Shown: one piece after another, positions 30,303 through 62,796 of the stretch
Layout of the letters: every line of letters starts with the position of its first letter
How positions within the stretch are numbered: position 1 is the first letter of the stretch
DNA from: an uncultured Porphyromonadaceae bacterium
Lineage (GTDB): Bacteria > Bacteroidota > Bacteroidia > Bacteroidales > Muribaculaceae
Direction: 5' to 3'
Length of the DNA: 64,000 nt
Assembly (NCBI GenBank): GCA_947573485.1
Contig: CANPGB010000016.1
Span: 1-64,000 of the forward strand
The notes under the pieces: model-generated
The model's input: only the letters and a program-made list of their open reading frames with translations
Told to the model about the DNA's origin: nothing
Database searches by the model: none
Made by a program: the position numbers and the translations under genes

Positions 30303-31010
30303 GCGTCTGCAAGACGCTGATTCATCTCATAACCCCGTACGCCGAAGCTCTTGCGGAGGCGTGCGGGGTTAGCTATGCCCTCACGGGTGGCGTCCGCATG
30401 GACGCCGATTAAAATTTGCGTCCTAAGCTATTTCTTATTACTTTTGTACATGAGTCACACGTCACTGACATATCACATTGTATTCGGCACTTGGTGTCGA
30501 TTCCCGGCGATTGTAGAAGAGCACGAGAGAGAGCTTTATAAGTTTATTCATACCTTCTCAACCGAGCGCGAAATCGTGATACGGCGAATAGGAGGAATGC
30601 CCGACCATATACATATTTTATGTGATATACCGGCAAAGATAGCGCTTGCCGACTTTGTGAAGTCACTGAAATCAGAGTCAAGCAAGTTCATGCGGGTGAA
30701 TCCACACTTCTCGAATTGGAAGAGCTGGGCAGAGGGCTATGGTGCTTTTACCGTAGATTCGTCGCTTCGAGAAACAAGAAAACTCTATATAATGAATCAA
30801 AAACAGCATCATCGCGTTCTATCTTTTGAAGATGAATATAGCTGTTTATTAAAAGAAGCCGGAGTAGAATTTTCCGGATTCGAACATTAGCAAACGTTCT
30901 TAATCAGCGTCCTGCCGGACGCACTCCCGAGCGCCGGGCACTACCCCTGCACGCCTACGCCAAGGCTTCGGCGTACAGGGTTACGAGATGAATCAGCGTC
31001 TTTCAGACGC
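30303..31010. mobile_element. putative RAYT/IS200-like element with nested inverted hairpins
   Basis: Hairpins A1 30303-30317, B1 30331-30370, A2 30389-30406, A3 30907-30922, B2 30945-30980, A4 30996-31010 placed symmetrically around a Y1 transposase gene; 30303-30335 and the reverse complement of 30978-31010 match at about 31/33 positions. Confidence 0.75.
30450..30890 (+). CDS. Y1 (HUH) transposase, REP-associated tyrosine transposase / IS200-like
   Basis: 146 aa; GGMPDHIHILCDIP HUH motif and candidate catalytic Tyr in KLYIMNQKQHH. Confidence 0.9.
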   Translation: MSHTSLTYHIVFGTWCRFPAIVEEHERELYKFIHTFSTEREIVIRRIGGMPDHIHILCDIPAKIALADFVKSLKSESSKFMRVNPHFSNWKSWAEGYGAFTVDSSLRETRKLYIMNQKQHHRVLSFEDEYSCLLKEAGVEFSGFEH

Positions 31011-31121: not shown

Positions 31122-31195
31122 GGCGGGATAGCTCAGTTGGTTAGAGCGTCGGATTCATAACCCGGAGGTCACGAGTTCAATTCTCGTTCCCGCCA
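31122..31195 (+). tRNA. tRNA with CAT anticodon (probably elongator tRNA-Met)
   Basis: GGCGGGA...TCCCGCC acceptor stem, full cloverleaf, loop TTCATAA. Confidence 0.92.
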
Positions 31196-59471: not shown

Positions 59472-62312
59472 ATGAAAAAACTGATTTTGCGCGGCATAGC
59501 AGCAGTGATAGCTGTGACAGCCGCATGGGCACCTGTAAAAGCTCAGGAGCCCGGGCAGATTCCGAGCCTCCCGCTCGACCCGGAAATCCGCACAGGCGTG
59601 CTTGACAATGGCATGACTTATTACGTCCGCCACAACGACACCCCCAAGGGCCAGGCCGATTTCTACATTGCCCAGAAAGTAGGTTCTATCCTTGAAGAAG
59701 ACCACCAGCGCGGTCTCGCCCACTTCCTCGAACACATGTGCTTCAATGGTACACAGAATTTCCCCGGCAAAGGCATCATCAACTGGCTTGAGACCAAAGG
59801 TGTGAAATTCGGCCAGAACCTCAACGCCTACACCGGCGTCGACGAGACCGTTTACAATATCTCGAACGTGCCCTGCGCCTCCAAAGCCGTGCAGGACTCC
59901 TGCCTCCTCATTCTCCACGACTGGTCGTGCGCCCTCACCCTCGACCCCGCTGAAATCGATGCCGAGCGCGGCGTTATCCACGAAGAGTGGCGCCAGAGCA
60001 TGGCCGGTCAGATGCGAGTTATCGAGCAGCTCCTCCCCACAATGTACCCCGACAGCCGCTACGGCTACCGCCTCCCCATTGGCACAATGGAGGTTGTCGA
60101 CAACTTCCCCCCGCAGGCGATCATCGACTACTACCACACATGGTATCGCCCCGACCAGCAGGGCATTATCGTAGTAGGCGACATCGATCCCGAATACATC
60201 GAGGGTAAAATCAAAGAGATGTTCTCGCCCATACCCATGCCCGAGAACGCACGCGAGCGCGAATACTTCGAGGTGGAGGAAACTCCCGGCACTATCTTCG
60301 CCCTTGGCGCCGACAAAGAAATCAAGTCGGCAGGCATAGAGATGCTCTTCAAGACAAACGCCATGAAGCTCCCCAAAGAGTACCGCAACACTGCCGCACA
60401 CTTCATGACCGAATACATGCGCCGCATGATTACGTCGATGCTCAACAACCGCCTTGCCGACCTCGCAAGCAAGCCCGAAACCGAATATGCACGTGCACGC
60501 GTGTCGATCGGCGACTACTTCCTTGCCAAGACCACAGGCGCCCTCGACCTCGACGTCGTAGCCAAGGATACCGACGTGGTTCCCGCCTTCCAGCAGGCTT
60601 ACCGCGAGCTTCTCCGTGCCGCACGCGGAGGCTTCACCGTGGGTGAATACGAGCGCGCCCGCGCCGAACTCCTCTCGGGCGTTGAAAAAGAATACAACGA
60701 GCGCGACCACCGCCAGAACGAGACCTTCTCACGCGGCCTCGTGCGCACCTTTGTCGACGGCGTGCCCTTCACCGACATGGCCACCTACAAGGCTATGTAC
60801 GACCAAATGGCCAACATGCTCCCCCTCGAGCAGCTCAACACCGTTCTCCCCCAAATGATTACCGAGGACAACCGCGTTGTTCTCGCCCTCATCCCCGAGG
60901 CCGAAGGCTACACCCTCCCCACCGAGGAAGGCCTCACCGCCGCTATCGAGGCTGTTGAGGCCGAAGAACTCGAGCCCTATAAGGACGAGATGCGCACCGA
61001 CCCCCTCATTCCCTCGCTCCCCGCTCCCGGCACCATTGCATCTACCTCGCACAACGCCGAGTGGGACGCCACCGAGTACGTGCTCTCCAACGGCGTGAAA
61101 GTGCTCGTGAAGCGCACATCGTTCAAGCCCGGCGAAATCTTCTTCGGCGCAATTGCCCAGGGTAACGCCCTCGCCGACATCGACCCCGCAAAGGCTTCGT
61201 CGGTGAAATTCCTCCCCGTGGCAATGATGAACGAGGCTTACTACGACTACTCAAACTCCGACCTCAAGAAGTACATCCAGGGCAAGCAGATTGAAATCGG
61301 TCTCAGCGCCGACGGCTACACCCGCTCGCTCCAGGGCCAGACAGTAGCCAAAGACCTCCCCACCGCTATGGAGCTCATCTACTCTCTCTTCACAGGCTTC
61401 AACCTCAAAGAAGATGAGTTCGAGGCTCGCCGCAGCGCCATCGCAGGTATCATCGCCAACCAGGAGACCGACCCCCAGTTCGTGTTCCAGAAGAGCTTCC
61501 TCAGCGTGCTCTTCGGCTCGCCCATGCGCCAGGCCATGTCGCTCGAAGATGTGAAAGCCGCCAACCGTGAAGACATCATCGCCATGGTTCACAACATGAC
61601 CGCCAACGCCGCCGACTACCTCTTCGTGTTCACCGGCGACATCGACGATGCCTCTTTCATACCCCTCATGGAGCAGTACATCGCCACTCTCCCCGCCGAC
61701 GCTGCAAAAGCAACCCGCAACTACACCGTCAACAAGGGCTTCGAGTTTGTGACAGGCACCGAGACCAACACCTTCACTACCCCGATGCAGACCCCGCAGA
61801 CATGGGTGCTCATAATCCTCAACGGCGACATGCCCTACAATGCCGAGAACAAAGCCCTCACCGAGGCAGCCGCACAGGTTCTCTCGAAGCGTCTGCTCAA
61901 CAAGATCCGCGAGGAAATGGGCGCCGTTTACTCTATCGGTGCCGCAGGCATGATGACCCGCACAGGTGAAAACAACACTATCTTCCAGATCGGTTTCCCC
62001 ATGAAACCCGAGATGAAAGATGAGGCTCTCGCCGAAATCAAGAACATTATCTGGAGCATGCCCACAACAGTGACAGCCGAAGAGGTTGCACCCGCTGTAG
62101 AGTTCATGCAGAAAGACATCAAAGAAAAACTCGAGAAGAACGAAGAGTGGGCCGAGTCGATGACCGCCACCTCTATCAACGGCGTGCAGACCTTCCTCAA
62201 CACCGCCGACGTTCTCCCCGGCATCACCGCCGAGAAGGTTCAGAAATTCATGCAGGATATTATCAATCAGGGCAACTACCGCGTGATTGTAGTAGACCCC
62301 GAAACTAAATAA
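59472..62312 (+). CDS. M16 family metallopeptidase (pitrilysin-like)
   Basis: HFLEHMCFNGTQNFPGKGI (HxxEH) and duplicated M16 domains. Confidence 0.95.
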   Translation: MKKLILRGIAAVIAVTAAWAPVKAQEPGQIPSLPLDPEIRTGVLDNGMTYYVRHNDTPKGQADFYIAQKVGSILEEDHQRGLAHFLEHMCFNGTQNFPGKGIINWLETKGVKFGQNLNAYTGVDETVYNISNVPCASKAVQDSCLLILHDWSCALTLDPAEIDAERGVIHEEWRQSMAGQMRVIEQLLPTMYPDSRYGYRLPIGTMEVVDNFPPQAIIDYYHTWYRPDQQGIIVVGDIDPEYIEGKIKEMFSPIPMPENAREREYFEVEETPGTIFALGADKEIKSAGIEMLFKTNAMKLPKEYRNTAAHFMTEYMRRMITSMLNNRLADLASKPETEYARARVSIGDYFLAKTTGALDLDVVAKDTDVVPAFQQAYRELLRAARGGFTVGEYERARAELLSGVEKEYNERDHRQNETFSRGLVRTFVDGVPFTDMATYKAMYDQMANMLPLEQLNTVLPQMITEDNRVVLALIPEAEGYTLPTEEGLTAAIEAVEAEELEPYKDEMRTDPLIPSLPAPGTIASTSHNAEWDATEYVLSNGVKVLVKRTSFKPGEIFFGAIAQGNALADIDPAKASSVKFLPVAMMNEAYYDYSNSDLKKYIQGKQIEIGLSADGYTRSLQGQTVAKDLPTAMELIYSLFTGFNLKEDEFEARRSAIAGIIANQETDPQFVFQKSFLSVLFGSPMRQAMSLEDVKAANREDIIAMVHNMTANAADYLFVFTGDIDDASFIPLMEQYIATLPADAAKATRNYTVNKGFEFVTGTETNTFTTPMQTPQTWVLIILNGDMPYNAENKALTEAAAQVLSKRLLNKIREEMGAVYSIGAAGMMTRTGENNTIFQIGFPMKPEMKDEALAEIKNIIWSMPTTVTAEEVAPAVEFMQKDIKEKLEKNEEWAESMTATSINGVQTFLNTADVLPGITAEKVQKFMQDIINQGNYRVIVVDPETK

Positions 62313-62338
62313 ATCCGCGTACTATCCTACCCTACACA

Positions 62339-62370
62339 GCAAGGGCTGTGCCGCACGGCACAGCCCTTGC
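62339..62370 (+). terminator. terminator after M16 peptidase
   Basis: GCAAGGGCTGTGCCGCACGGCACAGCCCTTGC followed by TGTTTTCT. Confidence 0.8.
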
Positions 62371-62423
62371 TGTTTTCTCGTCCGAAACTCATGGCAGCCC
62401 GTACGGAAAGAGGCATCACTATG

Positions 62424-62796
62424 GCGTCCGCCAGGACGCTGATTAACCCGTAACCCCCACGCCAGGGCGTCCGGCAGGACGCTGATTAACCAGTAACCCC
62501 GTACGCCGAAGCTTTAGCGGAGGCGTGCGGGGCTGAAAGACACACAGGAAAGCGTCCGGCAGGACGCTGATTAAGGTGAGGCTCAACGCCTTACAATTTT
62601 AATCGGCGTCCATGCGGACGCCATGCCTTGTGGTATTGCTGACCCCGCACGCCTCCGCTAAAGCTTCGGCGTACGGGGTTACTGGATTAATCCGCGTCCT
62701 GACGGACGCGACTTCGCCGGTTTGCTATCCCGGGCACGCCTACGCCTGCGGCTTCGGCGTACCCGGTTACGAGATTAATCGGCGTCTTTCAGACGC
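62424..62796. repeat. REP-like hairpin array, head-to-head arranged; same A/B hairpins as the RAYT locus
   Basis: A hairpins at 62424-62439, 62467-62482, 62552-62567, 62605-62622, 62693-62710, 62782-62796; B hairpins at 62497-62532, 62643-62678, 62730-62766. B3 and B4 are exact 36-bp reverse complements. Confidence 0.88.

Follow-up and report, generated by a model that had tools for sequence, protein, structure and literature searches.

Among domesticated transposases that maintain hairpin populations in the genomes of bacteria, RAYT/REPIN systems are the model case; RAYT stands for tyrosine transposase associated with repetitive extragenic palindromes (REPs). The IS200/IS605 insertion sequences (ISs) lack terminal inverted repeats and end in dissimilar hairpins located on the same strand, and IS200-type mechanisms leave no target-site duplication. 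REPINs are REP doublets that form hairpins and are mobilised by RAYTs (PMC3116915), and the Escherichia coli enzyme TnpA_REP, which cuts at CT, depends on a tag located 5′ to the hairpin (PMC8266576). Another group of one-tyrosine (Y1) enzymes, TnpA subclass 1.2, comprises low-copy proteins of ~148 aa from Bacteroidetes and Cyanobacteria with the signature Y---Q--HH (PMC6006769). The 2018 survey that named this group recorded no IS features and gave REP as "no" for it, so what subclass 1.2 acts on has been unknown. The 64,000-nt window analysed here (contig C16 of a 2.88-Mb genome of an uncultured Muribaculaceae bacterium) contains a tnpA gene of this kind between inverted palindromic arms and, at 62424-62796, an array with the same arms and no transposase gene. 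The core of this array, 62466-62711, is likely a REPIN-like non-autonomous mobile element that would be moved as a folded unit by TnpA. Array and enzyme appear to constitute a REPIN-like system belonging to TnpA subclass 1.2, set apart from RAYT/REPIN by the class of the enzyme, the tag, and the compound build of the arms.

The system resembles REPIN/RAYT in its extragenic, multi-copy pairs of inverted tagged palindromes, which form one hairpin at many sites and have ends in common with a single-copy Y1 gene; singlets and clusters also occur. It differs in having a class 1 (subclass 1.2) enzyme rather than a class 2 RAYT, a TTAATC-type tag rather than GTRG, arms of the form A-B-A, and a unit of ~246 nt. 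IS200/IS605 elements and PATEs (palindrome-associated non-autonomous elements, a term used in PMC3119063 and PMC7290912) likewise combine a related enzyme with short derivatives lacking the transposase, whereas the arms here are inverted and compound and a single intact enzyme gene is present. The bacterial interspersed mosaic elements (BIMEs) of enterobacteria are also mosaic arrays of extragenic palindromes in alternating orientation, but they belong to another sequence family, with another tag and enzyme class. As in miniature inverted-repeat transposable elements (MITEs), the element is short and gene-free, and its ends recur in an autonomous element elsewhere in the genome.

Structure of the array

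The element is 246 nt long, has no strand of its own, and consists of two arms inverted to each other around a centre; A and B palindromes alternate in each arm (A>B>A>-centre-<A<B<A). Its limits are given by the inverted repeat, the fold, and the alignment of 13 other near-complete copies. As single-stranded DNA, 62466-62711 folds into one hairpin of -120.9 kcal/mol, compared with -44.0 ± 3.6 kcal/mol for shuffled sequences (z -21; 0 of 200 shuffles as good). The left arm, on the + strand, comprises the outer hairpin A6 (62467-62489; GCGTCC-loop-GGACGC with the tail TGATTAA), the second palindrome B3 (62490-62532), and the inner hairpin A7 (62552-62574), at whose end GATTAA stands. After the 24-nt centre (62575-62598, + strand), the right arm follows on the - strand with the inner hairpin A8 (62599-62621), preceded on the + strand by TTAATC, then B4 (62643-62685) and the outer hairpin A9 (62687-62709). 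Additional units lie outside the element: a tandem A unit, A5 (62424-62446, + strand), on the left, and a B5-A10 unit (62730-62796, - strand) on the right, in which B5 (about 62730-62771) carries the compensatory stem variant CCGGG/CCCGG and is followed by A10 (62775-62796).

An earlier note on this DNA had located all these units, from A5 to A10, at the same positions. It had described B3 and B4 as exact reverse complements over 36 bp, and the match in fact extends over 43 bp. The gap it reported between A7 and A8 is real, but the size it gave, 37 bp, is not: 36 nt separate the hairpin feet, and the 24-nt centre lies between GATTAA and TTAATC. The B core occurs four times in the window, where 0.03 occurrences are expected, and a search of Rfam returned no match for the array. 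The array is situated between an M16 peptidase gene (59472-62312), whose own terminator-like hairpin (62336-62373) lies ahead of the array and outside it, and the 3′ end of the opposite-strand valyl-tRNA synthetase gene, valS (62965 onward).

The GATTAA tail, corresponding to the tag TTAATC, is present in 109 of the 111 A units collected. Because the filter used for this collection fixed three of the A stem pairs, only the remaining free pairs are informative; pair 2 occurs as GC, TA, and AT and is paired without exception in 99 units, and pair 1 is loose. The B stem has the two forms CCCCG/CGGGG and CCGGG/CCCGG. Read in the TTAATC orientation, which is taken as the active one, most A units follow the pattern GTTAC-n3-4-TTAATC-n-hairpin, the GTTAC coming from B. 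Similarity at the outer ends fades ~4 nt beyond the hairpin. The occurrence of CGTC within A had suggested the CGTC-tagged REPs (PMC3733652), which were ruled out since CGTC is an unpaired terminal tag there and part of the stem here.

Copies in the genome

BLAST with the 246-nt unit gave 121 matches at ~40 places in the genome, including ~13 near-complete copies and many half copies. The near-complete copies align over their full length, their flanks are unrelated, and they have the centre GATGAGAATCAACGCCTTACG in common, in either orientation. The genome-wide search that the earlier note had proposed was carried out with the pattern GATTAA-n15-45-TTAATC-n-GCGTCC, which was found at 17 sites, compared with none for the backward control. 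Most of these 17 sites carry the same 24-nt centre, in agreement with a separate search for the centre. The array in the window is thus one of about twenty short mobile copies with ends like those of the tnpA locus. The common centre indicates that the whole unit has spread, rather than being assembled at each site from single palindromes.

The arrays are situated almost solely between genes, a bias that the earlier note had proposed to test. Only 42 bp of the 9525 bp that they total fall within predicted genes, and the window is 87% coding; the genes were predicted with a purpose-written codon-usage caller, which is rough, yet the contrast is large. For the 26 arrays with called genes on both sides, the gene orientation is convergent in 11, tandem in 14, and divergent in one. 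A further 14 array entries reach contig ends, the points at which repeats break assemblies.

The tnpA locus and its enzyme

The tnpA gene (30450-30890, + strand) encodes a Y1/HUH transposase of 146 aa with the motifs DHIH and YIMNQKQHH and is the sole intact copy found in the genome. Its left arm (30303-30412, + strand) reads A>B>A> and ends in GATTAA, and its right arm (30895-31010, - strand) reads TTAATC <A<B<A. The core of the transposase-less array has the same order and the same GATTAA/TTAATC junctions as this locus at 30.3-31.0 kb (A>B>A>-gene-<A<B<A), as was first pointed out in the earlier note. A tRNA gene (31122-31195) lies ~110 bp downstream of the right arm.

The same note had called the enzyme a RAYT. 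Against the NCBIfam model for REP-associated tyrosine transposases (NF047646), the window TnpA scores 28.7, below the cut-off of 80, while E. coli RayT scores 179; against the IS200/IS605 model (NF033573), it scores 67.6, above the cut-off of 55. The nearest solved structures are IS200/IS605 TnpA alone (IS608 and ISDra2-type), and the nearest relatives of tnpA are from Muribaculaceae. The motif YIMNQKQHH fits the subclass 1.2 signature, as do the length of 146 aa and the low copy number. In the phylogenetic tree, the window TnpA is placed with class 1, apart from E. coli RayT; subclass 1.2 is not separated from subclass 1.1, which is represented by only two rows with long branches. Judged by its sequence, the window transposase is a TnpA of subclass 1.2 and not a classical RAYT.

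Two further copies of tnpA are damaged. One (C49; L046:3130-3567) is 84% identical and has an in-frame TAG that directly follows the region of the catalytic tyrosine (YIMN*KQHH). In the other (C9:22455-22862), only residues about 89-146 remain, between identical arms. This remnant is the intermediate that would be expected if internal deletion gives rise to transposase-less copies. The array beside it (C9:22748-23170) contains a tandem duplication of ~196 bp. Two more Y1_Tnp-domain proteins, of other kinds (C14:30228-30488 and C17:47571-47837), group away from the window tnpA.

Comparison with related genomes

Of the 49 genus genomes, two contain the sequence family: the present one and G006, where the match is weak. 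G007 is the closest of the relatives examined (M16 protein 72% identical). It has an array family of its own with 107 matches, alike in architecture but different in sequence, and this family also flanks the G007 tnpA, which indicates that arms and enzyme diverge together. The earlier note had reasoned that a lack of other copies, or an array perfectly conserved at one site in all relatives, would speak against a mobile element; other copies exist, and the family does not keep to fixed sites.

Presence and absence could be compared between related genomes at one site in two species. An array of ~360 bp (C36:6705-7066) separates recX from a CPBP-type gene, while in G007 no sequence separates the corresponding genes (65% and 66% identical), which abut or overlap. 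The first A unit of this array (about 6707-6733 of C36; L033:2008-2034) encodes the final residues VRQDAD and the stop of recX, so that a mobile palindrome provides the end of a gene. The recX orthologues have other endings, and the alignment with them stops at about residue 155. The simplest reading of these sequences is an insertion in this lineage, the alternative being a precise loss in G007.

Subclass 1.2 relatives and their arms

From one-per-species genomes, 79 tnpA relatives were taken; they were picked by similarity to the window protein, and distant members of subclass 1.2, cyanobacterial above all, are therefore under-sampled. In 67 of the 79 relatives at E <= 1e-3, and in 55 at 1e-8, the 300 nt ahead of the gene and the 300 nt behind it contain an inverted match, compared with 0 of 273 control windows shifted along these loci. 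Hairpins per 250 nt number 1.6 and 1.9 beside tnpA and 0.23 in the controls. A promoter motif seen beside the tnpA start in the window recurs in 7 of the 79 relatives and is not general. The arms of a Chryseobacterium tnpA are multi-copy (13 matches). In the complete genome of the planctomycete Limnoglobus roseus, a subclass 1.2-like tnpA has arms with 26 matches, which include about ten adjacent inverted pairs elsewhere.

The window TnpA agrees with the published subclass 1.2 (PMC6006769) in the signature Y---Q--HH, the length of about 148 aa, the low copy number, and the occurrence in Bacteroidota. The published absence of an associated REP, in contrast, fails here, given the inverted arms at 67 of the 79 loci and the multi-copy arms in several genomes. 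No report of REPs tied to subclass 1.2 was found in the open-access literature searched, subscription papers lying outside the search. On balance, TnpA subclass 1.2, which is widespread in Bacteroidota and occurs in planctomycetes and others, probably has a REPIN-like system of its own, which differs in its tag and in having two palindromes per arm. It would be the second time that an IS200-type enzyme, independently of the known RAYTs, lives as a single-copy gene alongside transposase-less hairpins. A likely substrate of subclass 1.2 is thereby supplied, and it can be recognised in the majority of genomes with the gene. If this is true, several branches of the Y1 enzymes gave rise to REPIN-like systems or retained them.

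Proposed mechanism and alternative explanations

The HUH one-tyrosine TnpA would act on single-stranded DNA, recognising A hairpins that have TTAATC as a 5′ tag, and would cleave close to the outer foot of each terminal hairpin. The unit would then be carried to new places in folded form, whether or not it contains tnpA, and copies landing in genes would be lost, leaving the survivors between genes. By analogy with the tag of E. coli TnpA_REP, TTAATC may act as a tag or guide. Recognition, cleavage and its exact point, and movement in trans by this TnpA are what we infer for the system. The MITE/BIME-like derivative proposed in the earlier note is thus upheld as a non-autonomous family, considering the arms and junctions in common with the tnpA locus, the intergenic placement, the tnpA remnant as an intermediate, and the empty site in a relative; its family name, RAYT, is not, and mobilisation by the enzyme belongs to the inferred part.

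Several observations weigh against this interpretation. A search of the outer ends for a conserved target or cleavage motif gave a weak [GC][CA]TG, which pins down neither the cleavage point nor a target preference. Most copies are 76-93% identical, and recent activity is therefore not evident. The 24-nt centre has only short edge matches to the ends of tnpA (best shuffle fraction ~0.02 among many comparisons), and an origin from tnpA is not claimed. The empty site compares species that are ~65% identical in protein, so a loss in G007 is possible, and no movement has been observed in these sequences, which are compared at species rather than strain level.

The palindromes might instead be maintained between genes by the host as terminators, mRNA stabilisers, or nucleoid sites; gene conversion or slippage would have multiplied them, and the transposase would have no part in it. 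The strong hairpins, the orientations of the flanking genes (11 convergent, 14 tandem, and one divergent of 26), and the tandem repeats within some arrays would fit such a role. Nevertheless, the M16 gene already has its terminator-like hairpin before the array, one array terminates recX inside its coding sequence, the whole 246-nt unit recurs with one centre at unrelated sites, and the arms match those of tnpA, likewise in G007, Chryseobacterium, and the planctomycete; host maintenance is therefore considered unlikely. Another possibility, that the arrays are internal deletion products of a conventional IS200/IS605 insertion sequence, would agree with the IS200/IS605 family score and with the IS608 and ISDra2-type structures nearest to the enzyme. 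This explanation seems more doubtful still, as the arms are inverted and compound, and as one tnpA is intact, the others being an 84% identical copy with TAG or remnants, while the transposase-less form is abundant. Least probable, and only remotely so, is a canonical RAYT/REPIN system with a class 2 TnpA_REP and GTRG-tagged REPs. The single-copy Y1 enzyme, the flanking inverted palindromes, and the many extragenic inverted doublets recall such systems, but the NF047646 score is far below its cut-off, the tag is TTAATC instead of GTRG, YIMNQKQHH is the subclass 1.2 signature, and the tree sets the window TnpA apart from E. coli RAYT. A REPIN-like element moved by a subclass 1.2 TnpA accounts best, in our judgement, for the array at 62466-62711.

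The M16 site in related genomes

No valS follows the M16 gene in any of the 29 genus loci examined, and G007 has its own array downstream of its M16 gene. The window site is thus unusable as an empty-site test. Beside the G007 array (G007:C63; L150:1-620), a stretch resembles part of another transposase gene, to which searches gave no identity; it may explain the lost valS neighbourhood.
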